A stretch of 11,704 bases of DNA, from contig JAFQII010000152.1 of assembly GCA_017397605.1 (NCBI GenBank), positions 1 to 11,704 of the forward strand, written 5' to 3'. The position numbers and the translations under genes were made by a program. This document shows positions 1 through 11,685 of the stretch, piece after piece. Positions within the stretch are counted from its first letter, which is position 1. Each line of letters opens with the position of its first letter. The notes below the pieces were generated by a model, which saw only the letters and a list, made by a program, of their open reading frames with translations, was not told the DNA's origin and did no database searches. The DNA is from Clostridia bacterium. Its GTDB lineage: Bacteria > Bacillota > Clostridia > Oscillospirales > CAG-382.

Positions 1-30
1 ATTTAAAGTATTTGTTTGGAGGAAAAAGAA
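1..30 (+). promoter_or_regulatory. 5' leader and ribosome binding site of the first LRR-dockerin gene (promoter lies outside the window)
   Basis: Bases 1-13 (ATTTAAAGTATTT) are identical to 9198-9210, in the leader of the third LRR gene just after its -10 box. Both are followed by a GGAGGAAAAA(A)GAA ribosome binding segment directly before ATG. By analogy, the promoter of the first gene should lie just upstream of base 1. GGAGG at 18-22 sits 8 bases before the ATG at 31, which fixes that start. The identity is seen directly; the position of the missing promoter is inferred. Confidence 0.7.
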
Positions 31-3000
31 ATGAAAGCAACCAAAGTGTTATCCCTGTTGCTCTCCGTTTTGATGCTGCTGACAGCAATCCCGCTCGGTG
101 TCACGGCATCGGACACACACGAGCATCCGCTACAAAACGGCGTGTGCACCGTCTGCGGTGCGCAATTGGCCGACGTCGACAAAAGCGGCAAGTTCAATAT
201 GCTAGACTATATGCGGCTCAGAAAATTCTTGCTGGGCGAATATGACATAGAGGAAACATATTGGCCTTTTTTGGACATTACCTGCAACGGTATCGTTGAC
301 GCGGCAGACTATTGCTACGCCAAGCTGTACGTGTTGGGGCGTCTTGATTTCTCCACCGTAAAAAACCAGACGCTCCCCGCAGAAGTTTCTGCAGTGCAAT
401 ATGATACCGATACGTTTGAAGCAAACGCCGATTCGAGTGTGTCAAGCGTTGTATATACAAGCGGAGAGGCCGTGGACACGGCATCCCATTTTTTGCATAT
501 GGATCTGACCGAGGTACGGCTTGAGGACGGTGTCACGAGCATCGGCGATGCCGCGTTTGTCAGCTGCACGGAGCTGACCAGCATTTCCATTCCCGCAAGC
601 GTGCAATTTGTCGGTGCGTACGCGTTTGCGTATTGCGACAAACTGACGGACATCCACGTGTACGGCTCCGCAAGCGGTTGGGACAAAAACTGGCTGTCCG
701 ATTGCTCCGCCACCGTGCATTGGCACAACGGCGAGCCGGAGGAGCCCGAAGTATCCGATGAGCCGAGCGAACCCGAAGAACCCCAAGAACCCGAAGAACC
801 CCAAGAACCCGAAGAACCGTACGAGCCTGAAATTCCCGAAGGTGCGACGATCGAAAACGTTGCGCTTGGAAAAAAGTATTATGCCCGCTCAATCTATTCT
901 TCGATGTTCCCAGACGAGGGCGAAGCAACTCTTACGGATGGCATATACCCTGCCGAAGAGTCTGTATATACCGACTCTGTCTGGGTTGGCTTTAACGCTC
1001 TCACCGACGAGTACGATCCCTCCAAAGGCGCTGTTGTCACAATTGATCTCGGTGCGTCGTATGATCTTACCGATTTTTCCATCACAGCGCTTTGGGACCG
1101 CGGCGTGGGAATCCAACTGCCCTACCGCACCACGATATATGTATCCGAGGACGGCGAAATATATGAGTACGCAAACGCTGTCGAACTGGTTTCGGATGGA
1201 TATGAAGAAGGCTGCTTTACGATCAACGGAACGATCAACCGCAAAGCCCGTTATGTTGATATATGTTTTGAAACGGATCTGTGGTGCTTCGTCTCAGAAA
1301 TAGAACTTTACGGAATTGTTCCCGAAGAGCCCGAAAAGCCGAGCGATCCTGCCTACGAAGAATACGTCGCGTGGGCTGAGTCGCAGGTCGGAGCGGCGGA
1401 GAATCCGTATTTTGACCTTGTGATGGACGCCAAGATCAACGAAAACGGCGAGGTCACGCTGACCGTTTCCCCGCAAAACATTATGACAGGTGTTGAACTG
1501 CTCAGTCTTTATTCAAACCTCTATTTTGACGAAGAACGGCTCGAATTGACCACCGCCACCTTGGAAACCGGGGCATTGGACTGCATCACACAAGTCCCTC
1601 ACAAAAACTGGCTCGAAGAGAATCTCATTCATTACGATTCTCGCCACCATAATATTTCCATCGGTATTGGAGACATAAGCAACACACCGGTTCCGTTATC
1701 TGCTCAGTCCCCCCTTGTCCTAACGTTCACGTTCAAGCTCAAGGACGGCTATGACTATGCCGCAATCTATGCGCCGTCCGATACAGTATCCGCATGTGAT
1801 TGTTACTGGAACTGCTATAACGGCAACGGCGGCTATGTGATCATCGACCGAAATGATGTTTCGCAAGAACCCGAAGTACCCGACGTACCGCCCGCGGACG
1901 CAAGCGATTTTACCTACGTCATCATCGAAGGCGAAGTGACTATTACCGACTATATCGGCGAAGGCGGCGACGTGGTCATTCCGAGCGAGATCGAAGGATG
2001 TCCTGTGACAACTATCGGTACCGGCGACAAACCTTTCGGCAATGATTCTATCATTAGCATTATCATTCCCGACAGTGTAAAGTATATTAACAACTATGCA
2101 TTTGCAGAGTGTCTTTCTCTGCAAAGCATCACTCTTCCCAACACCCTACTTTCAATCGGTAGCTTTGCATTCGGCAAGTGCGATTCTTTGTTCGAGATCA
2201 CGATTCCCGCTTCGGTAGAATCTATGGGAAGCGCAGTATTTTGGAATAGCGAAAAGTTGCAGAACATCTATTGCGAAGCGGACTCCCAGCCCGCAGGATG
2301 GGATGGTAGTTGGTTTGCACTATGCGACGCAACGATTTGGTTTGGCGGCGTTGTCTTCCAAAAGCCCGAATTTCTGTATGCGATAGTTGATGACGAGATC
2401 ACCATTATCGGTTATAGCGGCAACGGCGGCGAAGTGGTGATCCCAAGTGAGATCGAAGGTTATCCGGTTGTCGCCATTGATAGCTCCGAATTCTCTTACA
2501 ACGACTCTATCACAAGCGTTGTGCTCCCTGACAGTGTAAACTTTATTGGCTATCATGCATTTGCATATTGCTACTCCCTGCAAAGCGTCACACTCCCCAA
2601 CGGTCCTTTTTCAATCAAAAGCAATGCATTTAACGGGTGTACTGCATTGACTGAGATCACGATTCCCGCTTCGGTAGAATCTATGGGAATGTGTGTGTTC
2701 TCGGATTGTATAAATCTGCGAAACATATATTGCGAAGCGGAGTCCCCCCACAGAGAATGGGACGAAGACTGGCTTGTGGGTTGCAACGCTACCGTACATT
2801 GGGGCGTAAGCGGCGTACAGTACGGCGACATCAACGGTGACGGCAAGATCACGGGCACGGACGTGACGAGACTGCTTCGTTACCTTGCAAACCGCAACCC
2901 CATCACGGGCGTGTCGTCTGTGGAAATCACCGAGGGCGCGGACTGCAACGGCGACGGAAAGATCACAAGCACAGACATTACGAGATTGCTTCGTTACCTC

Positions 3001-3051
3001 GCAAACCGCAACCCCGTCACGGGCAAATCCGACGTGGTTTTGGGCAAATAA
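31..3051 (+). CDS. Secreted multidomain LRR protein with F5/8C, cohesin-like and dockerin modules
   Basis: 1006 aa, probably an extracellular adhesin or scaffold component. Start: ATG at 31, after GGAGG at 18-22; an in-frame TTG at 16 overlaps that site and is rejected. Order of parts: signal peptide 1-26 (LLLSVLMLL core, VTA/S cleavage); an H-x-H...C-x2-C motif (H30, H32, C39, C42); a degenerate dockerin-like pair at 48-103 (DVDKSGKFNMLD and DITCNGIVDAAD); a short LRR block ~158-232; a Pro/Glu linker ~233-270; a discoidin-like F5/8C domain ~271-430 with the NVALGK, LTDG and TIDLG motifs; a cohesin-like beta module ~455-608; a second PE linker; two similar LRR_5 modules of four repeats each (~626-770 and ~782-928); and a C-terminal dockerin 931-1006 with two DxNGDGKIT-type calcium loops. 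No enzyme domain is visible. LRR and dockerin calls are secure, F5/8C likely, cohesin-like tentative. The ligand is unknown. Confidence 0.93.
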   Translation: MKATKVLSLLLSVLMLLTAIPLGVTASDTHEHPLQNGVCTVCGAQLADVDKSGKFNMLDYMRLRKFLLGEYDIEETYWPFLDITCNGIVDAADYCYAKLYVLGRLDFSTVKNQTLPAEVSAVQYDTDTFEANADSSVSSVVYTSGEAVDTASHFLHMDLTEVRLEDGVTSIGDAAFVSCTELTSISIPASVQFVGAYAFAYCDKLTDIHVYGSASGWDKNWLSDCSATVHWHNGEPEEPEVSDEPSEPEEPQEPEEPQEPEEPYEPEIPEGATIENVALGKKYYARSIYSSMFPDEGEATLTDGIYPAEESVYTDSVWVGFNALTDEYDPSKGAVVTIDLGASYDLTDFSITALWDRGVGIQLPYRTTIYVSEDGEIYEYANAVELVSDGYEEGCFTINGTINRKARYVDICFETDLWCFVSEIELYGIVPEEPEKPSDPAYEEYVAWAESQVGAAENPYFDLVMDAKINENGEVTLTVSPQNIMTGVELLSLYSNLYFDEERLELTTATLETGALDCITQVPHKNWLEENLIHYDSRHHNISIGIGDISNTPVPLSAQSPLVLTFTFKLKDGYDYAAIYAPSDTVSACDCYWNCYNGNGGYVIIDRNDVSQEPEVPDVPPADASDFTYVIIEGEVTITDYIGEGGDVVIPSEIEGCPVTTIGTGDKPFGNDSIISIIIPDSVKYINNYAFAECLSLQSITLPNTLLSIGSFAFGKCDSLFEITIPASVESMGSAVFWNSEKLQNIYCEADSQPAGWDGSWFALCDATIWFGGVVFQKPEFLYAIVDDEITIIGYSGNGGEVVIPSEIEGYPVVAIDSSEFSYNDSITSVVLPDSVNFIGYHAFAYCYSLQSVTLPNGPFSIKSNAFNGCTALTEITIPASVESMGMCVFSDCINLRNIYCEAESPHREWDEDWLVGCNATVHWGVSGVQYGDINGDGKITGTDVTRLLRYLANRNPITGVSSVEITEGADCNGDGKITSTDITRLLRYLANRNPVTGKSDVVLGK
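172..342 (+). other. Degenerate N-terminal dockerin-like (F-hand) pair in the first LRR gene
   Basis: Residues 48-69 (DVDKSGKFNMLD...FLLG) and 82-103 (DITCNGIVDAAD...YVLG) follow the dockerin pattern: acidic or polar residues at loop positions 1, 3, 5 and 12, Gly at 6, then a helix ending in Leu-Gly. The pair differs from the C-terminal dockerin because position 5 is Ser or Asn instead of Asp. The positions that usually set cohesin specificity (10 and 11) are Met-Leu and Ala-Ala, against Gly-Thr and Ser-Thr at the C terminus. It may bind a different partner, or have lost cohesin binding and serve as a calcium-stabilised structural unit. The pattern is seen; the function is inferred. Confidence 0.6.
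1393..1854 (+). other. Cohesin-like beta-sandwich module inside the first LRR gene
   Basis: Residues ~455-608, about 150 aa, the usual cohesin length. It opens with a strand pair (FDLVMDAKI, VTLTVSPQNI). A TGVELLSLYSNLYFDEERLE stretch follows, matching the cohesin pattern of a 'G-I...l-x-YD-x2-x-L' strand. Near the end come LVLTFTFKLKDG, matching the 'G-x-L-x2-L-x-F-x-V/L-K' strand, and GGYVIID as the closing strand. This fold assignment comes from motif reading only; another Ig-like or carbohydrate-binding beta sandwich is possible. PE-rich linkers flank it on both sides, as expected for an independently folding module. Confidence 0.5.
1906..2811 (+). repeat. Duplicated LRR_5 module (two tandem copies) in the first LRR gene
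   Basis: Copies ~1906-2343 and ~2374-2811 have the same plan: an N-cap strand segment (ITDYIGEGGDVVIPSEIEG-like), four 23-residue LRRs, then a cap with IYCEA...W...VHW. A 37-base stretch is identical between them (2194-2230 and 2653-2689), 459 bases or 153 codons apart, in frame. This points to a fairly recent duplication of the whole module. The rest of the copies have diverged, especially in the first repeats. Confidence 0.75.
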
Positions 3052-3136: not shown

Positions 3137-3167
3137 GTAGGCATCATTTTTCAGGATGGTAAAAGAC

Positions 3168-6100
3168 ATGAAAGCAAACAGAATTCTATCTTTGTTGCTC
3201 TCCGTTCTGATGCTCCTTTCGGTTTTGCCGTTTGGCGTATCGGCTCAAAACGTCTCGGGTGATTTTACCTACGAAATCACCGACGGCGAAGCGGCAATCA
3301 CCAAGTACAAAGGTGCCGACGGCGAACTGCTCCTCCCGAGCGAATTGGACGGATATCCCGTCACAAGCATCGGCGCGGGAGCGTTTTCGGACAACACGTT
3401 TGTGCAGAGCGTCACGATTCCCGACGGTGTCAAATCCATCGGTGCGCGGGCGTTTATCGGCTGTGCATCTATGACAAGCATAAGCATTCCCGACAGCGTG
3501 ACGAGCATCGGCATTTCCGCCTTTGGATACTGCTCGTCGTTGGAGGAAATCACGCTTCCGAGCGGCTTGCGTGAAATTGAGGCGTCGCTGTTTACCTCCT
3601 GCGCATCGCTGACAAGCGTCACCCTTCCCGACGGTGCCGTGAGCATCGGCGCAGAGGCGTTTTTGGGTTGCCGATCGTTGACGGAAACCAAACTTCCCGA
3701 CAGCGTCACGGAGATCGGAGCGTATGCGTTTGACGGCTGCTCCGCTTTGGCGGAAATCGTCATTCCCGCAGGAGTTACTTCCATAGAGGACGGCGCATTT
3801 GCGCACTGCGGCGCGCTGACGGACATCACACTTCCCGCAAGTGTCACAAGCATGGGCTCGGGCGTATTCTCCGCCGCGGAACAACTGATCGACATTTACT
3901 GCGAGGCAGATTCCCGCCCCGACGGCTGGAATGAGTGGTGGACAGACGGCTGCAGCGCGGCTGTGCATTGGGGCGTAAGCGGCTCCGACGAGCCCGAAAC
4001 GCCCGAAGTTCCCGAAGAACCCGAAGTTCCCGATTACCCCGCGTTTGACGTCAACGACTTTTCCTACGAGATTACCGAGGAGGGCGTGACGATCACGCGC
4101 TACGTCGGCGAAGGCGGAGACGTGGTCGTTCCCAACGAGATCGACGGCTTGCCTGTGACGCAGATCGGAAATTACGCATTCGACGCAAACGAGACGATTT
4201 GCAGCGTTGTCTTTCCCGCAAGTGTCAAAACCGTGGGAGAATGTGCCTTTTATTTCTGCAGTAATCTGGCAAGCGTCCGATTTGCCGAAGGCTTGACCGA
4301 CATTGGAAGGCTTGCATTCAGCGGTTGCGAAAAGCTGACAGAAGTCGTGCTCCCGAGCAGTGTCAAAACGATCGGTGCCGCGGCATTCAGTGGGTGCGAA
4401 GGGCTGGTCAGCGTCACGCTTCCCGACGGGGTGACAAGCATCGGCCAAGGTGCATTCGGGCAAAACCCGCTGCTGTCGGATATTTCTCTTCCCGACAGTC
4501 TGACAGAGCTTGGCCAACACGCGTTTCATTATTGCGATTCGCTGACAAGCATTGCCCTTCCCGACGGTATTACTGCGATCGAAAACGGCACGTTTGCCCA
4601 TTGCCCCGCGCTTGCAGACGTCAGACTCCCCAAAAATCTGACAAGCATCGGAACCGAAGCATTTACCGACTGCGGTTCGCTGACAAGCATCGTCCTTCCC
4701 GACACTGTTACAATCATCGGAAGCTACGCGTTTGCCGATTGCAAACTGCTGGCAAGCGTCAACATTCCCGACAGTGTCAAAACGATCGGCGAGTATGCGT
4801 TTGACGGCTGTTACTCGCTGGAAGGTCTCACGCTTCCCGACAGCGTCACGGAGATCGGAAAATACGCGTTTCAGTATTGCGGTGCGATGGAAAGCATCAA
4901 CTTTCCCGCCGGACTGACGAGCATCAGCGAGGGTACGTTTTATTATTGCTCATCACTCAAAAACATCACGTTCCCCGCATCGGTCACGAGCATCGGCAAG
5001 GAAGCATTCGGATGCTGCAACTCGCTGACGACCGTCATCATTCCCGACACCGTCACAAGCATCCATACCGGGGCATTTGCCTACAGCTACAGACTGTCCG
5101 ATATTTATTGCGAAGCGGAAACACAGCCCGAGGGCTGGGCAAGCAACTGGAACACGGGCAGCAGTGCCGAAGTACATTGGGGCACGGACCGGATCACGGA
5201 GTTTGAGTACACCATCGCTGACGGCAAGGTCACCATTACGGATTTCAACGGCGTGGGCGAAGCGGTCATTCCCGCCGAGATCGAAGGCTGTCCCGTCACC
5301 GCCATCGGCGAGTACGCGTTCCAATACTGTCTCGATATGACAGGCATCGTCATCCCCGACACCGTCACGAGCATCGGAAAAGGAGCATTCCACGAATGCT
5401 TTGCATTGCAAAGCGTCACCATTCCCGCTGGTGTGACCAATATCCCCAACAGTACGTTTTCCAACTGCACCTCTATGACCGAGGTCTATATTCCCGACAC
5501 CGTTACAAGCATCGGCAGACAGGCATTTTATATGTGCCACGCGCTGAAAAGCGTCGTCAATCCCGACAGCGTGACGTACATCGATTATCAAGCGTTTAAA
5601 CACTGCATATCGCTGGAAAGCGCAGTGCTCCCCGCCAACCTCGGATACGTCGGCTCGTCCATGTTCTACGGGTGCAGTGCGCTGAAAGACGTGACCATTC
5701 CCGAAGGATTCCCGAGCATCGGCTACGAAATGTTTTATGAGTGTACCTCGCTGGAGATCATCGAAATTCCCGGCAGCGTCACCTTGGTTGATGCGTATGC
5801 GTTCTACAAATGCAGTGCATTGAAAGACGTCATACTTCCCGAAAGCGTCATGTATCTCGGTGCCAAGGCATTCTTCGAATGCACATCGCTCACAAGCATG
5901 GTTATTCCCGACCAAGTGACCGAAATCCGCGAGCGCGCCTTTTGCGGTTGTACCTCGCTTGCAAGCATCACGCTTTCGCAAAATCTGCAGAGCATCGGCG
6001 AGCACGCGTTCAGCGGCTGTAAGGCATTGACAGAAATCGACATTCCCGACAGCGTGGTGTCTCTCGGCAAATATGCGTTCTACGGCTGTGTTTCTTTGAC

Positions 6101-9100
6101 CGCCGTATCGCTCCCCGCCGGCATCACTTATCTACCGGAGTATGCCTTCGCCGAATGCGTGTCGCTGACGGACATCGTCCTTCCGAGCACCGTCACAACC
6201 CTCGGAAAATCCGTATTTTCGAACTGTGACTCGCTGAGAAGCATCAACCTTCCCAACGGTCTCACGGCCATTCCGGAAAATGCATTTTGGTGTTGTGTAG
6301 CGCTGGAAAGCATCCGCATCCCCGCAAGTGTCCGATATATCCGCGACAGTGCGTTTTCGGTTTGTGAATCGCTGACGGAAATCAAACTCCCCGCAGGAAT
6401 TACAAACATTGAGCGTTCTGCCTTTTCAAGCTGCCGAAAGCTGACCAATATTTTTATTCCCGCAAGTGTCACGAATATGGAAACCGGCGTGTTTAGCTCC
6501 TGCGACGCGTTGACTGACATCTATTGCGAGGCAGAATCGCGCCCGGACGGTTGGAGCAAAACCTGGGCCGACGGCTGTAACGCCGCGGTGCATTGGAATG
6601 CAGACGCCCCCGAGGAGCCGATCGATCCCGATATCATCTACGAAATCATCGACGGCACCGTCGTGATCAAAGACTACACGGGCAAAGGCGGCGACGTGGT
6701 CATTCCCGAAACGATCGAAGGCTGTCCCGTCACGGTCATCGGCGAAATGGCGTTCTGGAACACGGCGGTCACAAGCGTGGACATCCCCGCGAGCGTCACC
6801 CGCATCGAAGCGTCCGCCTTTGAGGACTGTACCGCACTGACAAGCATCGTCTTGCCCGAGGGCGTCATTTATCTCGGCAAAAACGCGTTTACCATGTGTA
6901 CCGCGCTGGAAAGCGTCACACTTCCGCAAAGCCTCTCAGAAATCGACGATTACGCGTTTGACAATTGCTCATCGCTGACCGAAATCACCATTCCCGCAGG
7001 TGTCACGGCGGTCGGCAGAAGCATCTTTGAAGACTGCACGAACCTCCAAAACGTCTATGTCGAAGCAAGCGGGATTCCGTCCGGCTGGTCGATCGCCTGG
7101 GACGGCGGATCTGCCCGTCCGATCTGTGAGATCTACGTCGGCGGCGCGATCTACAAGGAGATCATCGGCGACTACCGCGCGGTATATCAAGGCGACGGAA
7201 CTGCCATCCTCGACCTTTATCTGGGCAATGCATCCGATCTCGTCATTCCGAACACGATCGGCGGCTGTACCGTAACGGAGCTGGGCAGAGGTCTCTTTGC
7301 GGGTAACGATACGATCCGCGTGGTAACCGTTCCCGACACGGTCGGCGTCATCGGCACGGACGCGTTCTTTGAGTCAAGCGTCGAAACCGTCGTGCTTCCC
7401 GATACGTTGCATACGATCGGTGCCGGCGCGTTCAACTACTGCTACAACCTGCAGTCGATCACCCTGCCCGCAGGACTCAAAACGATCGGAAGCTCCGCAT
7501 TCTGGGCTTCTTCGCTGAGCGGCGAGCTGGTGATTCCCGACGGCGTGACCGAAATCGGTTTCAATGCGTTTATCTACACCCCTCTGACGTCCGTTTACAT
7601 TCCCGACTCGGTCGAAACGATCGGAAGCGGAATCTTTATGGGCTGTGAAGACCTGACCGACGTCTACTGCGAAGCAAAGGAACAGCCCGAAACCTGGGAC
7701 GCGGCATGGCTGGAAGAATGCACACCGACCGTGCATTGGGGCGCGAGCGCTCCCGAAGGCTCGGACGAACCCGAGGTCACGTACGAAATCACCGACGGCG
7801 AAGTGACGGTCACGGGCTTGACCGTTGACAGTACGGAAGTGGTCATTCCGAGCGAGATCGCGGGATTGCCCGTCACGGCGATCGGCGCAAATGCATTTGC
7901 AGAAAACAGAACGATCAAAAGCGTCATCATTCCCGAGGGTGTCACAAGCATTGGCAGCGGTGCGTTTAACTACTGCACCAATCTGACAAGCGTGACGATC
8001 CCCTCCTCCGTCGAGGAGATCGGGGAAAGCGCGTTCCGCTGCTGCTTCCTGCTGACGGAGCTCGTCATTTCCGAAGGCGTGGTCAGCATCGGCACAACCG
8101 CGTTTAACTCTTGCGGAATGACAAGCCTTGTCCTGCCCGAGAGTGTCACAAATGTCGGTGAACGTGCATTTGACAGCTGCAGCAAGCTGACGAATGTTTC
8201 TATCCCCAAAAACCTCACAAGCATCGGCATCGGCGCGTTTGCCCGTTGCGGTGCGCTGACGACCATGACGGTCGATCCCGAAAACCCCGTCTATCACAGC
8301 GAAAACAACTGTCTGATCGAAACCGCTTCCAACACACTCCTGCGCGGATGCAAGGAAAGCGTCATTCCCGACTATATCACAAGCATCGGCGCATGGGCGT
8401 TTTCGGTGGAATATAGGATCGGCAGCAGCGTCGTTCCCGACAGCATCGCAAGCATCACGATTCCAGACGGTGTCACAAGCATCGGCGCAAACGCGTTTTA
8501 TTACTGCACGTCGCTCAAGAGCATCGTCCTTCCCGACAGCCTCACAAGCATTGGCAACTGGGCATTCTGGAGATGCACCGCGCTGGAAAGCATCGTCATT
8601 CCCGCAGGGGTAACGATCATCCGCGAGAGCACGTTTGAGTATTGCAGTGCGCTGACGAGCGTCACCATTTCCGATAGCATCACGGCGATCGAGACGAGCG
8701 CGTTTGGCTCGTGCAGTGCGCTGGAAAGCATCACGATTCCGCGCAGTGTCACAAGCATGGGCTACGGTGTGTTCCGTCTGTGCAAGGTATTGACCGACAT
8801 CTACTGCGGCGCATACGCCCAGCCCGCAGGTTGGAGCGACAACTGGCTCTACTACTGTGACGCGGCCGTGCATTGGGCAGAAGCTCCCGCGTTTGTCTAC
8901 GGCGACGTCAACGGTGACGGCAAGATCACGAGCACGGACGTGACGAGACTCTTGCGTTACCTTGCAAACCGCAACCCCGTTACGGGCGTGTCGTCTGTGG
9001 AAATCACCGAGGGCGCGGACTGCAACGGCGACGGAAAGATCACGAGCACGGACATTACGAGACTATTGCGTTACCTCGCAAACCGCGACCCCGTTACGGG

Positions 9101-9128
9101 CGAGTCCGACGTGGTTCTCGGCAAATAA
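3168..9128 (+). CDS. Giant secreted BspA-like leucine-rich-repeat protein with C-terminal dockerin
   Basis: 1986 aa. Start: ATG at 3168 is preferred over the in-frame ATG at 3156 because AGGATGG (3153-3159) then serves as ribosome binding site and the N terminus (MKANRILSLLLSVLMLL) aligns with that of the first LRR gene. Signal peptide ~1-26, cleavage after VSA. I count 63 LRR_5 repeats of about 23 residues (V-x2-I-G-x2-A-F-x2-C-x2-L pattern, then an IPDS/LPDG turn) in six modules: ~31-270 (8), ~296-671 (14), ~673-1143 (18), ~1155-1326 (5), ~1327-1526 (6) and ~1538-1905 (12). Most modules open with an ITDGEVTIT...VVIPSEI-type strand cap and close with an IYCEA...GW...VHWG cap. A PE-rich linker separates only modules 1 and 2. 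Dockerin 1911-1986. BspA-family LRR proteins bind host matrix proteins or other cells; the dockerin suggests display on a cohesin scaffold. The ligand is unknown. Confidence 0.95.
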   Translation: MKANRILSLLLSVLMLLSVLPFGVSAQNVSGDFTYEITDGEAAITKYKGADGELLLPSELDGYPVTSIGAGAFSDNTFVQSVTIPDGVKSIGARAFIGCASMTSISIPDSVTSIGISAFGYCSSLEEITLPSGLREIEASLFTSCASLTSVTLPDGAVSIGAEAFLGCRSLTETKLPDSVTEIGAYAFDGCSALAEIVIPAGVTSIEDGAFAHCGALTDITLPASVTSMGSGVFSAAEQLIDIYCEADSRPDGWNEWWTDGCSAAVHWGVSGSDEPETPEVPEEPEVPDYPAFDVNDFSYEITEEGVTITRYVGEGGDVVVPNEIDGLPVTQIGNYAFDANETICSVVFPASVKTVGECAFYFCSNLASVRFAEGLTDIGRLAFSGCEKLTEVVLPSSVKTIGAAAFSGCEGLVSVTLPDGVTSIGQGAFGQNPLLSDISLPDSLTELGQHAFHYCDSLTSIALPDGITAIENGTFAHCPALADVRLPKNLTSIGTEAFTDCGSLTSIVLPDTVTIIGSYAFADCKLLASVNIPDSVKTIGEYAFDGCYSLEGLTLPDSVTEIGKYAFQYCGAMESINFPAGLTSISEGTFYYCSSLKNITFPASVTSIGKEAFGCCNSLTTVIIPDTVTSIHTGAFAYSYRLSDIYCEAETQPEGWASNWNTGSSAEVHWGTDRITEFEYTIADGKVTITDFNGVGEAVIPAEIEGCPVTAIGEYAFQYCLDMTGIVIPDTVTSIGKGAFHECFALQSVTIPAGVTNIPNSTFSNCTSMTEVYIPDTVTSIGRQAFYMCHALKSVVNPDSVTYIDYQAFKHCISLESAVLPANLGYVGSSMFYGCSALKDVTIPEGFPSIGYEMFYECTSLEIIEIPGSVTLVDAYAFYKCSALKDVILPESVMYLGAKAFFECTSLTSMVIPDQVTEIRERAFCGCTSLASITLSQNLQSIGEHAFSGCKALTEIDIPDSVVSLGKYAFYGCVSLTAVSLPAGITYLPEYAFAECVSLTDIVLPSTVTTLGKSVFSNCDSLRSINLPNGLTAIPENAFWCCVALESIRIPASVRYIRDSAFSVCESLTEIKLPAGITNIERSAFSSCRKLTNIFIPASVTNMETGVFSSCDALTDIYCEAESRPDGWSKTWADGCNAAVHWNADAPEEPIDPDIIYEIIDGTVVIKDYTGKGGDVVIPETIEGCPVTVIGEMAFWNTAVTSVDIPASVTRIEASAFEDCTALTSIVLPEGVIYLGKNAFTMCTALESVTLPQSLSEIDDYAFDNCSSLTEITIPAGVTAVGRSIFEDCTNLQNVYVEASGIPSGWSIAWDGGSARPICEIYVGGAIYKEIIGDYRAVYQGDGTAILDLYLGNASDLVIPNTIGGCTVTELGRGLFAGNDTIRVVTVPDTVGVIGTDAFFESSVETVVLPDTLHTIGAGAFNYCYNLQSITLPAGLKTIGSSAFWASSLSGELVIPDGVTEIGFNAFIYTPLTSVYIPDSVETIGSGIFMGCEDLTDVYCEAKEQPETWDAAWLEECTPTVHWGASAPEGSDEPEVTYEITDGEVTVTGLTVDSTEVVIPSEIAGLPVTAIGANAFAENRTIKSVIIPEGVTSIGSGAFNYCTNLTSVTIPSSVEEIGESAFRCCFLLTELVISEGVVSIGTTAFNSCGMTSLVLPESVTNVGERAFDSCSKLTNVSIPKNLTSIGIGAFARCGALTTMTVDPENPVYHSENNCLIETASNTLLRGCKESVIPDYITSIGAWAFSVEYRIGSSVVPDSIASITIPDGVTSIGANAFYYCTSLKSIVLPDSLTSIGNWAFWRCTALESIVIPAGVTIIRESTFEYCSALTSVTISDSITAIETSAFGSCSALESITIPRSVTSMGYGVFRLCKVLTDIYCGAYAQPAGWSDNWLYYCDAAVHWAEAPAFVYGDVNGDGKITSTDVTRLLRYLANRNPVTGVSSVEITEGADCNGDGKITSTDITRLLRYLANRDPVTGESDVVLGK
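8898..9128 (+). other. C-terminal type-I-like dockerin of the second LRR gene, near-duplicate of 2821-3051
   Basis: It holds two calcium-loop/helix repeats (DVNGDGKITSTD and DCNGDGKITSTD, each followed by a TRLLRYLANR helix), separated by a linker that includes VEITEGA. Positions 10-11 of both loops are Ser-Thr, the pair familiar from classic type I dockerins. By eye the DNA differs from 2821-3051 at about 19 of 231-234 positions, and 62 consecutive bases are identical (8982-9043 and 2905-2966). Dockerins bind cohesins on scaffoldins, so this end should tether the protein. Confidence 0.92.
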
Positions 9129-9228: not shown

Positions 9229-10980
9229 ATGAAAAAACTCCTGTCCCTTCTTTTGACGCTTTGCATGCTCCTGCCGTTTGCCGTCCCCGCGGCAGCGATT
9301 GCGCAGACGGCTGATTTTGCGTACGAAACCGCCGACGGCGAAGTCACGATCACAGGGTATCACGGCAACGGCACAAACGTCGTCATTCCGTCCGAGATCG
9401 GGGGCTGTCCCGTGACAAAGATCGGTCAATGTGCGTTCTCGTGCCGTGATGCAATCGTCAAGATCGTCCTTCCCGACAGCATTCGCCATCTCGAGATGAA
9501 CTGCTTTGAAGGCTGTACCGGTCTCAAAAGCATCGACCTGCCGCAAGGGCTGTTGTCGATCGATATGGACGCATTTCTCGACTGCAGTGCTTTGACAAGC
9601 ATCCGTATTCCCGCAAGCGTGTCGTTTATCGCGCAAGGCGCGTTTCGGTATACGAGCGGCCTGACGGAAATCACGGTCGACGAAAGCAACCCCTACTACT
9701 ACAGCAGCGGCAACTGCCTTGTCGAAACCGAGACACAATTGCTCATCGCGGGTTGCAAAAACAGCGTGATTCCCGACGGTGTTGTGACCATCGGCGAATT
9801 TGCATTTGCCGGCTGTTCCTCGCTTGAGAGCATTGCGTTCCCCGATACACTCAAGACGATCGGCTTCAGCGCGTTCCACACCTGCACCTCCCTGCAGGAT
9901 TTGGTGTTCCCCGAGGGGCTTGTCACGATCGAACCAGGTGCGTTTGGATGCTGCAGCTCGCTCAAAGACGTTGTTTTTCCGCAGGGGCTTCATTTGTTGG
10001 ACAACGCGTTCTATCTCTGCGACTCGCTGGTTTCGGCATACATTCCGTCCAGTGTACAGTGGGTGGGCGAAAATCTTTTTGACGGCAATTACAACATGCG
10101 CGCAATCTACTGCGACCTGCCTTACCGTCCTTACGGCTGGAGTGAAAACTGGCTTGCGGGCTGCGACGCTGCGGTGTATTGGCGCGGTGAATTTGAGTCG
10201 ATCTATCCCGTGACCAATCTTGCGCTCGGCAAGGAATATACGATCTCCCAGCAGTACCGCCAAGGCGGCGCAGAAACAAATTGGGGCTGGGACGATCAAG
10301 CGCCGATCGCCTATCCCGACGAGGGCGGGACGCTGACCGACGGCGCAGTCTGGCCTGCCGAAGATTCTTTTTACGATCCCGCGTGGGCGGGCTTCAGCGC
10401 CCGTTGCCCCGAATACGGCGAGCTTGGGTACGCATACATGACCTTGGATCTGGGCGAGATCACCGCGTTTGACCGCGTGATTCTGCATGGCTATCTGGAT
10501 TCAACCGCAGGCATCGGCTTGCCGCATCACCTGGCGTTTTTTGTCTCCGATGACGGAAACGAGTACACGCAAGCAGGCACCATGGATCTCAATCCCGGCG
10601 AATACAGCAACGATCCCCTGCCGATCACGTTTGAGTCCCCCATGAACGGCCGTTACCTGCAGATTCGCTATCAAATGGAAAACTGGGCGTTCTTCTCCGA
10701 GCTCGAGGTCTACAACGCAGGCATTGAATTTGCGCCCGAAACGCCTTCGCTTTTGGGTGACGTCAACTGCGACGGTGCGGTTAACAGCTTGGACGTCACG
10801 CGTTTGATGCAGTATTTTGCGGACTACGATTACGCAAGCGGAACGTCTCCCGTAGAGATCTCCGCGCACGCCGACTGCAACGGCGACGGCACCGTCGACG
10901 GCCGCGATGTCTCGCGATTGCTCCGTTACCTCGCCAACCGCGACCCCGTTACGGGCGAGTCAAGCGTTACATTGGGATAA
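9229..10980 (+). CDS. Secreted LRR protein with discoidin-like F5/8C domain and dockerin
   Basis: 583 aa, the compact paralog of the two genes before it. Start: ATG 9229 after GGAGGAAAAAAGAA. Signal peptide ~1-25 (KK, then LLSLLLTLCMLL; AIA/Q or AAA/I cleavage). One strand cap (~30-62) leads into nine LRR_5 repeats. The fourth carries a longer insert (TVDESNPYYY...NCLVET...LIAGCKNSVIPDG), a known variant of this repeat family that also occurs in the last module of the second LRR gene. The LRR closes with an IYCDL...GW...VYW cap (~290-321). A discoidin-like F5/8C domain follows at ~326-500 (NLALGKEY, LTDGA, TLDLGE, FVSDDG, FFSELEVY), matching that of the first gene. The dockerin 509-583 is more diverged than the other two: loop positions 10-11 read Ser-Leu and Gly-Arg. 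The likely role is surface binding of a glycan or protein, displayed through cohesin; this is inferred from domains only. Confidence 0.94.
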   Translation: MKKLLSLLLTLCMLLPFAVPAAAIAQTADFAYETADGEVTITGYHGNGTNVVIPSEIGGCPVTKIGQCAFSCRDAIVKIVLPDSIRHLEMNCFEGCTGLKSIDLPQGLLSIDMDAFLDCSALTSIRIPASVSFIAQGAFRYTSGLTEITVDESNPYYYSSGNCLVETETQLLIAGCKNSVIPDGVVTIGEFAFAGCSSLESIAFPDTLKTIGFSAFHTCTSLQDLVFPEGLVTIEPGAFGCCSSLKDVVFPQGLHLLDNAFYLCDSLVSAYIPSSVQWVGENLFDGNYNMRAIYCDLPYRPYGWSENWLAGCDAAVYWRGEFESIYPVTNLALGKEYTISQQYRQGGAETNWGWDDQAPIAYPDEGGTLTDGAVWPAEDSFYDPAWAGFSARCPEYGELGYAYMTLDLGEITAFDRVILHGYLDSTAGIGLPHHLAFFVSDDGNEYTQAGTMDLNPGEYSNDPLPITFESPMNGRYLQIRYQMENWAFFSELEVYNAGIEFAPETPSLLGDVNCDGAVNSLDVTRLMQYFADYDYASGTSPVEISAHADCNGDGTVDGRDVSRLLRYLANRDPVTGESSVTLG

Positions 10981-10982
10981 AG

Positions 10983-11017
10983 AAAAAACGATACCTGTTT
11001 CGTGCAGGTATCGTTTT
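10983..11017. terminator. Bidirectional intrinsic terminator between convergent genes
   Basis: AAAACGATACCTG (10985-10997) pairs perfectly with CAGGTATCGTTTT (11005-11017) around a 7-base loop. A T-run follows on the + strand, and the A-run 10983-10988 gives a six-T run on the - strand. It lies 2 bases after the stop of the third LRR gene and about 20 bases beyond the stop of the opposing four-helix-bundle gene, so it can end both transcripts. Confidence 0.88.
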
Positions 11018-11379: not shown

Positions 11380-11402
11380 AAAATAAAACCTTTCTGTTGA
11401 TC

Positions 11403-11571
11403 GTGAAATATCCTGCGGATGTGAAATAATGACCTTCGGTCATTGTGAAATTTTCTGCTATCGCAGAAAGTGAAATGAAATAAATCCTCTCACGCCCGCA
11501 GGCATTTCACATTGCACAGCAATATTTCACTGCCGAAGGCAATTTCACAAATCCCGCAGGGATTTATTTCG
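11403..11571. repeat. REP/BIME-like array of seven hairpins tiled with GTGAAAT / ATTTCAC linkers
   Basis: Left half: GTGAAAT at 11403, 11421, 11445 and 11470, with perfect short palindromic stems between them: 11410-11420 (ATCC-TGC-GGAT), 11428-11444 (AATGACC-TTC-GGTCATT) and 11452-11469 (TTTCTGC-TATC-GCAGAAA). Right half, inverted: CTCTCAC at 11487, ATTTCAC at 11504, 11524 and 11542, and a degenerate ATTTCGT at 11566. The hairpins between these are 11494-11503 (GCC-CGCA-GGC), 11511-11523 (ATTGC-ACA-GCAAT), 11531-11541 (TGCC-GAA-GGCA) and 11549-11565 (AAATCCC-GCA-GGGATTT). GAAATAAATCC (11477-11487) also reappears inverted at 11560-11570. Within each half the units abut without gaps. The stems differ in sequence and length but each is self-complementary, so structure rather than sequence is kept. 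Function is unknown; a REP-like or non-autonomous element, or a nucleic-acid target of the adjacent four-helix-bundle protein, are possibilities. Confidence 0.85.
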
Positions 11572-11574
11572 TTG

Positions 11575-11604
11575 AAAAAACTCCGATGCGATTGCATCGG
11601 AGTT
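11575..11604 (-). terminator. Intrinsic terminator of the tRNA-Gly gene
   Basis: CTCCGATGC (11581-11589) and GCATCGGAG (11594-11602) form a 9-bp stem with a 4-base loop, extended by A-T pairs. On the - strand a six-T run (11575-11580) follows. The stem starts 6 bases after the tRNA's encoded CCA, so this ends the tRNA transcript. It separates the tRNA from the array and the four-helix-bundle gene, though some read-through into them is possible. Confidence 0.88.
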
Positions 11605-11609
11605 ATTTC

Positions 11610-11685
11610 TGGAGCGGATTACGGGGGTCGAACCCGCTACCTCAACCTTGGCAAGGTTGCGCTCTACCAAATGAGCTAAATCCGC
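11610..11685 (-). tRNA. tRNA-Gly (anticodon GCC)
   Basis: On the - strand the acceptor stem is GCGGATT (11685-11679) paired with AATCCGC (11620-11614), then discriminator T and an encoded CCA (11612-11610). The D arm contains GCTC...GAGC with a GGT loop. The anticodon arm CAACC-TTGCCAA-GGTTG gives anticodon GCC. The T arm GCGGG-TTCGACC-CCCGT has the canonical TTCGA. Length is 73 bases plus CCA, the standard form without introns or a long variable arm. It decodes GGC/GGU glycine codons. Confidence 0.97.

Follow-up and report, generated by a model that had tools for sequence, protein, structure and literature searches.

The intervening sequences (IVS) of 23S rRNA hold an IVP/S23 gene inside an insert that is limited by inverted sequences, and the encoded protein belongs to the family PF05635. 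REP elements have a family-conserved hairpin with a fixed foot tag; these directional units are dispersed, stand head to head in BIMEs, and have a dedicated protein gene (RAYT) beside some copies. Intergenic heptamer tandem repeats are period-7 words often found beside start codons, and they include TAACTGA (Beggiatoaceae, Cyanobacteria, Bacteroidetes), GGGGA(T/C)T (Nostoc) and GGGAATC (Xanthomonas). MacGregor 2015 reported TAACTGA heptamers from the same phyla and found no mechanism of transfer. The Gut-1 family (Rfam RF01706) was rated 'certainly' RNA and probably not cis-regulatory, and was known only from human-gut environmental sequences, according to Weinberg et al. 2010. Finally, PF05635 is reported in PMC10053308 to resemble Avd of DGRs, and 23S rRNA IVP stands among the labels of a published CRISPR-association figure. 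The main texts of PMC4679880 and PMC4692102 make no mention of 'helix bundle' or 'S23', and we found no paper in the open-licence literature, preprints outside, that links such proteins to heptamer or hairpin arrays.

Here we describe a hairpin array and an adjoining four helix bundle (4HB) gene at the end of an 11,704-nt stretch of DNA (the window) from a Clostridia bacterium draft genome. The locus shares with the IVS a PF05635 protein and a gene within an insert, but the window 4HB gene lies between tRNA-Gly and a leucine-rich-repeat (LRR)/dockerin gene and not inside a 23S rRNA gene, the annotated copies on plasmids have protein genes as neighbours, and the ends are repeated heptamers or hairpin arrays. 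With REP/BIME it has in common the directional, dispersed tag-and-hairpin units, head-to-head pairing and a dedicated gene beside some copies, whereas RAYT is not required here, the tag word varies, the partner is the 4HB gene, and a family-conserved hairpin with a fixed tag is not what the arrays contain (240 of 276 hairpin units are distinct). The period-7 words and overlapping phyla recall the intergenic heptamers, with the difference that inverted heptamers here bracket 4HB genes. Unlike DGRs, most array-bearing genomes of the genus yielded no reverse transcriptase (RT). As for Gut-1, described as a human-gut non-coding RNA, its covariance model matches one half of the array above cut-off, and 17 of 24 same-genus genomes hold an over-cut-off match; yet the match is here one half of a two-half array, occurs in animal-gut Clostridia MAGs and is tied to a protein gene.

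Results

Architecture of the array

The end of the window has, in minus-strand order, tRNA-Gly, the terminator-like hairpin P0, half one (GTGAAAT with hairpins), a central arm, half two (hairpins with ATTTCAC) and the 4HB gene (Table 1). Read on the plus strand, 11403-11571 holds four GTGAAAT, three ATTTCAC and seven hairpins, just as the original prediction, made from the sequence alone, had described; in the ATTTCAC orientation the loops are exactly the GCA, GAA, GATA, CGCA, ACA, GAA and GCA it listed. The gapless tiling it proposed does not hold, since a central 17-nt stretch (11477-11493) separates the halves; the last 11 nt of this stretch (GGATTTATTTC, minus strand) pair with GAAATAAATCC. 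Elsewhere the window encodes three large LRR proteins in a row (16-3051, 3156-9128 and 9229-10980), of which the first and third, the two scanned, carry BspA-type LRR and dockerin domains.

Table 1. Features at the end of the window, in minus-strand order.
Feature	Coordinates	Strand	Basis or remark
tRNA-Gly (GCC)	11610..11685	-	ARAGORN and Rfam tRNA; element sits behind tRNA gene
P0, terminator-like hairpin GAAATAACTCCGATGC..TTTTTTC, directly past tRNA CCA	11574..11609	-	fold -14.2 kcal/mol, z -8.6; counterparts in relatives
Outer 5' arm GAAATAAATCC, complementary to central arm	11560..11570	-	sequence pairing
Hairpin 1 AAATCCCTGCGGGATTT, rival of long-range arm	11549..11565	-	single-unit fold
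First half, cassette sense: GTGAAAT linkers 11542-11548, 11524-11530, 11504-11510; hairpins 11531-11541, 11511-11523	11504..11548	-	sequence and folds
Hairpin GCCTGCGGGC at junction of halves	11494..11503	-	fold, weak alone (-1.5 kcal/mol)
Central arm GGATTTATTTC	11477..11487	-	pairs with outer 5' arm GAAATAAATCC
Second half: ATTTCAC linkers 11470-11476, 11445-11451, 11421-11427, 11403-11409; hairpins 11452-11469, 11428-11444, 11410-11420	11403..11476	-	sequence and folds
Gap from array to 4HB start, 23 nt	11380..11402	-	-10-like box here in many relatives; none by eye in window copy
4HB gene, PF05635 (23S rRNA-intervening sequence protein), TIGR02436, 113 aa	11038..11379	-	profile matches
Terminator-like hairpin past 4HB gene, probable right limit of window copy	10986..11017		inferred by eye

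The minus strand from 11380 to 11610 folds with a z of -9.5 as DNA and -8.9 as RNA, and none of 200 shuffles was equally stable; as RNA, the two strands of the array give -8.9 and -8.5. The loop order is the same on either strand, TNC-type triloop units being followed by C(GNA)G-type triloop units. Single-stranded DNA hairpins of the form d(C-GNA-G) are exceptionally stable. Among relatives, read in the cassette sense, 75 of 120 first-half units have TNC/TTT triloops (GNA/AAA, 4; other, 41), and 54 of 156 second-half units have GNA/AAA loops (TNC/TTT, 9; other, 93). The predicted coupling of loop and orientation is thus strong but not universal. The proposal that stems are replaced while pairing is kept is borne out, and the linker, which had been called conserved, is so inside one array, whereas its word changes from array to array.

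Arrays were sought with a detector that demands two or more copies of a 7-mer followed by two or more of its reverse complement, the complement thus being imposed by the detector. It marked 86 places in 528 kb of loci (pre-selected and overlapping) versus none in a block-shuffled copy; 73 of the 86 are distinct, and at least two (L113 8157, L123 10753) are chance matches by eye. In 41 of 66 arrays the outer 5' arm and the array centre share a pairing of 8 nt or more, versus 17.9% of 4290 swapped pairs; this is the wider-window test, which is reported in place of a shorter-window one (at least 9 nt in 22 of 66, versus 7.7% of swaps). In 35 of the 41 long-arm arrays a local hairpin partner competes for the long arm. 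Two mutually exclusive arm pairings are hence often kept, and these could act as a switch between a closed and an open element end.

The 4HB gene as partner of the arrays

The window 4HB protein matches PF05635 at 92.7 bits (cut-off 33.8), and its nearest PDB relatives by sequence are 2rld and 2gsc. Nine 4HB proteins served as queries to collect at least 568 relatives, and the best 80, chosen by protein alone, come from Clostridia MAGs, mostly of animal gut. A two-half array lies at most 500 nt upstream of 68 of these 80 genes. Of the other genes in these loci that encode 120 aa or more, taken as controls, 3 of 305 have one, as do none of 1600 shuffled upstream regions. The original proposal of directional modules in two opposed halves is supported. 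Most of the remaining 12 genes have degenerate or half arrays, by eye. When no complement is demanded, a 7-mer recurs at least three times at array spacing upstream of 75 of the 80 genes; 61 of these 75 repeated words have at least two reverse-complement copies, versus 0.8% of 1026 tests with words of other classes, and in 64 of the 67 loci with any reverse-complement copy the two orientations are kept apart.

The linker words include GTGAAAT, ATGAAAT, GCTAAAT, GTGAAGT, GTGATAT and others, and the halves remain reverse complements. With word classes assigned from a fixed list of eight words, the nearest-neighbour 4HB protein belongs to the same word class in 64 of 72 cases, and none of 2000 permutations was as strong. 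This between-class test was used instead of a half-swap test, which is weak since two classes, GTGAAAT and ATGAAAT, prevail (own, 45 of 59; swaps, 59%). The match of word class and 4HB lineage shows joint inheritance, which is no proof of binding. Beyond the 4HB gene the word hardly recurs: the own linker is present at least twice within the next 300 nt at 1 of 66 gut loci.

An ATGA or GTGA overlap with the next reading frame is seen for 18 of 76 intact 4HB genes versus 31 of 584 control ORFs, spurious frames included. This is suggestive only of a possible coupled cargo gene after the 4HB gene. A Pfam scan of 17 of the 18 coupled frames gave 8 with a match at E<=0.01, the matches being a pyrophosphatase (cut by the contig end), DUF4288, a HAD hydrolase, a WapI-like immunity protein, DUF6678, DUF6304 (below cut-off), GNAT and a MutY-like protein. 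In genome G004, too, the 4HB gene is followed by a GNAT gene (L117), and two cargo genes recur under different word classes (L149/L190, aligned; L104/L108, by eye).

Several loci depart from the common layout. At 6472-6777 of L123, in a tRNA cluster of genome G006, a decayed 4HB stretch lies in the reading frame adjoining a GTGAAAT array, which suggests that the gene may decay while the array persists. L091 and L109, same-genus loci inspected by eye, have 4HB genes with plain tandem words (ATTCATT-like, CTCTTC-like), inverted copies and few interleaved hairpins; these are possible intermediates between the gut form and the heptamer-bracketed form described below. Two human-faecal 'phage' scaffolds (L140, MT835590.1; L141, MT835815.1) and an IMG/VR contig (L113) carry 4HB genes with two-half arrays, and L113 has two arrays in tandem. 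Viral scans gave one locus for one protein and four for A1.

Copies in the host genome and the genus

A search for further copies, which the original prediction had called for, was rewarded in the draft genome that holds the window (1.7 Mb, 61% complete): 16 spaced ATTTCAC pairs lie on 4 contigs, the window locus included, versus none for the reversed control pattern, and 29 Gut-1 matches were found at E<=1e-3, 18 of them over the gathering score (150 of 157 candidates scored). These matches lie in 25 array places, versus four PF05635 genes in the genome, and most of the other arrays are built on GTGATAT and related words. Near the own-genome 4HB genes on contigs C75 and C184 the array words were not found, which counts against a mobile element. 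A second dispersed type was noted by eye on C114, C286, C108, C181, C152, C164, C59, C5, C259 and C58; it consists of GTGATAT half arrays that end in TTTTCGC..GCGAAAGT, followed by gGTAACAATTTGC and a further inverted repeat, and no 4HB gene was seen nearby.

Among 24 same-genus genomes, Gut-1 matches occur in 22 and PF05635 genes in 19, and their counts correlate (rho 0.69, p 1.7e-4, uncorrected for kinship or completeness). Among the matches listed, 13 of 43 PF05635 matches lie at most 600 bp from a Gut-1 match, as counted by eye. The exceptions, all MAGs, count against the association: Gut-1 was matched without a PF05635 gene being found in G010, G020, G022 and G023 (one weak match), and G011 has two PF05635 genes and no Gut-1 match.

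Position behind tRNA genes

Same-strand tRNA ends lie at most 600 nt upstream of the 4HB gene at 50 of 80 loci; for arrays picked by the RNA model alone, a tRNA is close by in 6 of 25 in the own genome and 12 of 24 in the genus. The tRNA cluster Asp-Gly-Cys-Thr-Asp-Phe-Gly of G004 was traced through the genus. Several cluster tRNAs match and an array follows the last of them in G004, G003 and a second G006 cluster (by detector) and in G009 and G007 (by eye), whereas nothing but a terminator follows in G002, G005, G012, G015, G021, G022, G023 and the first G006 cluster. The arrays behind the cluster differ in word between some genomes. For the window, G011 and G013 the single tRNA matched denotes array-bearing tRNA ends, which does not imply the same place, and loci cut by contig ends are uninformative.

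In G004 the block of array, 4HB and GNAT, with further genes, stands between the tRNAs and a gene whose weak homologue (34%, 122 aa) comes straight after the tRNAs in G012. Related copies were selected through a common second-half unit; the thirteen obtained, from five genomes and two of them cut by contig ends, have up to ~255 nt in common, from the P0/CAAC junction to GTAGCCCATAGACA, and are different outside. A clean empty counterpart of the window's own site was not found among the same-genus tRNA-cluster loci, and when flank pairs of gut Clostridia were scanned for empty sites, the 175 rows returned were mostly noise by eye. It counts against mobility that at the gut tRNA sites the right flanks diverge, and that the tRNA cluster, the displaced downstream gene and a tRNA-Ser locus all fall short of a clean empty site. 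The sequences suggest that the element may lie between the tRNA CCA and the native terminator; as terminators change fast, they are no proof of it.

L116, L143, L182 and L086 have tRNA genes that lack an array; downstream of these come a terminator and a (GA)TCGAAGGG stretch that recurs, and a GC-rich hairpin is nearby. This stretch is perhaps another repeat family after tRNAs.

Gut-1 and the promoter of the 4HB gene

An Rfam scan of the window returned Gut-1 and tRNA only. The Gut-1 match (11499..11574, minus strand; 73.4 bits versus a cut-off of 50) covers the first half only. In 55 of the 68 arrays the gap from the last linker to the 4HB start is 20-65 nt, and in 41 of these 55 a -10-like box (at most one mismatch) lies between array and gene, versus a mean of 20.7 and a maximum of 29 in 200 shuffles; in 40 of the 41 the box is 23-36 nt ahead of the 4HB start. 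Hence these arrays stand outside the 4HB mRNA, between a terminator and a promoter, and this position favours a role as DNA over one as a leader RNA and argues against Gut-1 being expressed as a non-coding RNA. Regulation of the 4HB gene by a leader RNA is weakened as a candidate on the same ground. The window copy, with its promoter not visible by eye, may be weakly expressed or worn, which counts against a mobile element here.

Heptamers bracketing 4HB genes in other phyla

Outside the gut set, 29 4HB loci were examined: 18 plasmid loci selected from 26 matching records (mostly Cyanobacteria, two Chloroflexota, and one each of Bacteroidota, Spirochaetota and Bacillota) and 11 of 15 IMG/VR loci (L280, L288, L289 and L290 left out; L283 and L284 look like near-duplicates). 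Tandem repeats of period 7 or 14 lie at most 160 nt upstream of 18 of the 29 genes, versus 4.5% of 647 control windows. Inverted bracketing, i.e. two or more copies of a 7-mer upstream and two or more of its reverse complement downstream, is found for 19 of 29 4HB genes versus 1 of 616 controls, and direct-pair bracketing for 5 of 29 versus 5 of 616. In several loci the downstream inverted heptamers begin at the 4HB stop codon, and the bracketed unit contains no other gene. Against a mobile element count the 10 of 29 genes, Treponema and Monoglobus loci included, without inverted bracketing; outside Cyanobacteria and viral contigs, the bracketed loci are a single one from Bacteroidota and a single one from Chloroflexota.

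Across six stretches of 39-50 kb, 20 period-7 segments lie within 5 kb of a 4HB gene (62 kb) versus 4 further out (188 kb), half of the 20 being from one plasmid. On Dolichospermum pAfl69 (L303 27262-33647), ten period-7 arrays, nine of them of the one word AATTACG, surround one 4HB gene in 6.4 kb; some of them lie inside annotated helicase, hypothetical and methyltransferase frames, and the remainder of the 50-kb stretch holds one more such segment. The 4HB genes are found between cas2 and cas1 on the other strand, between drmD and pglX, between hsdS and hsdR (not annotated there) and between helicase and methylase genes, thus among genes of other systems. Integrase genes lie less than 2 kb from the 4HB gene on some plasmids and IS630 genes near another, which counts against the reading favoured below.

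Three Nostoc/Dolichospermum plasmid sites were compared, with limits set by BLAST. In Nostoc sp. C052 pC052_A, 422 bp (heptamers, 4HB, inverted heptamers) stand in place of 188 bp; the unoccupied versions are pC052_D and Nostoc sp. C057 p057_H, where the same region occurs at 84-99.8% identity without the 4HB gene. Since the 188 bp are alike in pC052_D and p057_H (88.8%), they are probably ancestral. In Nostoc sp. ATCC 53789 pNsp_c, a DNA cytosine methyltransferase gene has 328 bp replaced by 466 bp; in pC052_C this gene is annotated as a single 759-nt CDS. At these two sites the limits of the unit coincide with the heptamers to about ten bases, and target DNA was lost; ordinary DDE transposition duplicates a few target bases. 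The third comparison, Dolichospermum versus Nostoc pNLP1, gave 932 versus 466 bp of poorly alignable sequence with no clean limits, which counts against mobility.

Discussion

We favour, with a probability of roughly two in three, the reading that the array acts in cis as a DNA end of a mobile element, with the PF05635/TIGR02436 4HB gene as its conserved gene and the repeats as its ends. The gut Clostridia form would consist of P0, two inverted halves of heptamers interleaved with hairpins, a promoter, the 4HB gene and sometimes a coupled cargo gene, and would settle behind tRNA genes and other hairpins; arrays that have no 4HB gene would be non-autonomous copies served in trans. The form in other phyla would be (heptamer)n - 4HB - (inverted heptamer)n, 422 and 466 bp long at the two sites measured. 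As to mechanism, the 4HB protein, a relative of Avd, may bind heptamers of its own class, and the repeats may fold on single-stranded DNA exposed at forks so that the ends are drawn together; host repair or replication would then join it to the target site, part of which would be lost. Avd, the accessory protein of DGRs to which the 4HB protein has been likened, is pentameric. The 4HB protein has no known catalytic activity, a point that counts against this reading. That the gut and cyanobacterial forms are one kind is likewise what we infer from their common protein family and from copy-specific repeated words in both orientations; the difference in layout, both orientations lying upstream at gut loci with hardly any recurrence past the gene, counts against such unity.

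The array might instead be an immobile operator, passed on vertically, through which the 4HB gene regulates itself at multiple sites: it abuts the promoter, its linker class tracks the 4HB protein, and repeated words suit a repeated binding site. Such a function is compatible with the mobile element we favour, but as the full account we hold it unlikely, for the own genome has 25 array places versus 4 4HB genes, arrays are present or absent behind tRNAs and differ in word, 4HB units replace target DNA on plasmids, and the unit lengths vary in a way that would give a spacing unlike that of an ordinary duplex operator. It is quite improbable that the array is a transcribed non-coding RNA acting as a folded RNA, i.e. 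Gut-1 as it stands in Rfam. The bit score of the match, the highly stable RNA folds of both strands and the 'certainly' RNA grading (Weinberg et al. 2010) do speak for this; yet the model spans only half of the array, the -10-like box lies past the array in 41 of 55 relatives, the loop rule is identical on both strands, as expected for DNA, and a hairpin-free form exists in other phyla.

The remaining alternatives also have the arrays move, by the agency of another enzyme. If an ordinary recombinase of the DDE, tyrosine or serine type acted on them in trans as MITE-like ends, with the 4HB protein as passenger or regulator, the integrase or transposase genes near some plasmid 4HB genes would be explained, and tRNA 3' ends are the usual targets of integrases. 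We nevertheless consider this decidedly unlikely, because copies differ in word while each word keeps to its 4HB lineage, the tRNAs used are many and various, and two sites show loss of target DNA in place of duplication. A retroelement, with an RT in trans (DGR or group IIC-like) and the 4HB protein as an Avd-like helper, would be in keeping with target loss, which fits imprecise retro-insertion; group IIC introns are placed beside terminators, which the site of the arrays recalls. The resemblance of PF05635 to Avd (PMC10053308) points the same way. A retroelement is very improbable, however, as RVT_1 occurs in 6 of 24 same-genus genomes and was not found in the array-rich G004 (97% complete) and G006 (99%), nor in the own genome (61% complete); an RT that is divergent or falls into a gap of the assembly could have escaped notice. 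The original prediction had likened the array to REP elements: the likeness to a mobile element of tag plus hairpin stands, whereas a relation to REP/RAYT does not. An analogue of REP/BIME mobilised by a Y1 transposase (RAYT) is scarcely credible even with the head-to-head pairs of short tag and hairpin and one Y1_Tnp gene in the own genome (not adjoining an array), since Y1_Tnp is found in 5 of 24 same-genus genomes and is absent from several array-rich ones, among them G004 (26 Gut-1 matches) and G006 (11), and the associated gene is the 4HB gene. Array-rich genomes that lack a match rule out both REP/RAYT and an RT in trans as requirements. RT and Y1 enzymes, the two enzyme families examined, would accordingly be dispensable in the genus, judging from genome content.

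The original prediction was right on the array itself, gapless tiling apart, and its interpretation is supported in part; it passed over the Rfam family, the 4HB partner, the tRNA and terminator context, the competing central arm and the bracketing heptamers of other phyla. Taken together, the array looks like a tie between scattered bacterial heptamer repeats and the catalogued Gut-1 'RNA'. More broadly, and more tentatively, at somewhat less than even odds, PF05635 proteins may be the partners of widespread minimal mobile elements that have no recognised recombinase of their own, with copy-specific heptamer ends, a protein that recognises its own word and a local seeding of arrays as on pAfl69. 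Under this wider reading one explanation would cover the Gut-1 'RNA', the orphan 23S IVS protein and the intergenic heptamers that Cyanobacteria and Bacteroidetes carry. If this is right, many genes annotated as 'four helix bundle protein' or '23S rRNA-intervening sequence protein' would form one class of mobile element with ends recognisable from sequence, and the Rfam Gut-1 family would have to be re-read as DNA. The heptamer repeats of Cyanobacteria and Bacteroidetes would then have a testable source, and natural pairs of protein and matching repeat word would allow one to study how the movement of DNA could be aided by a small helical-bundle protein.
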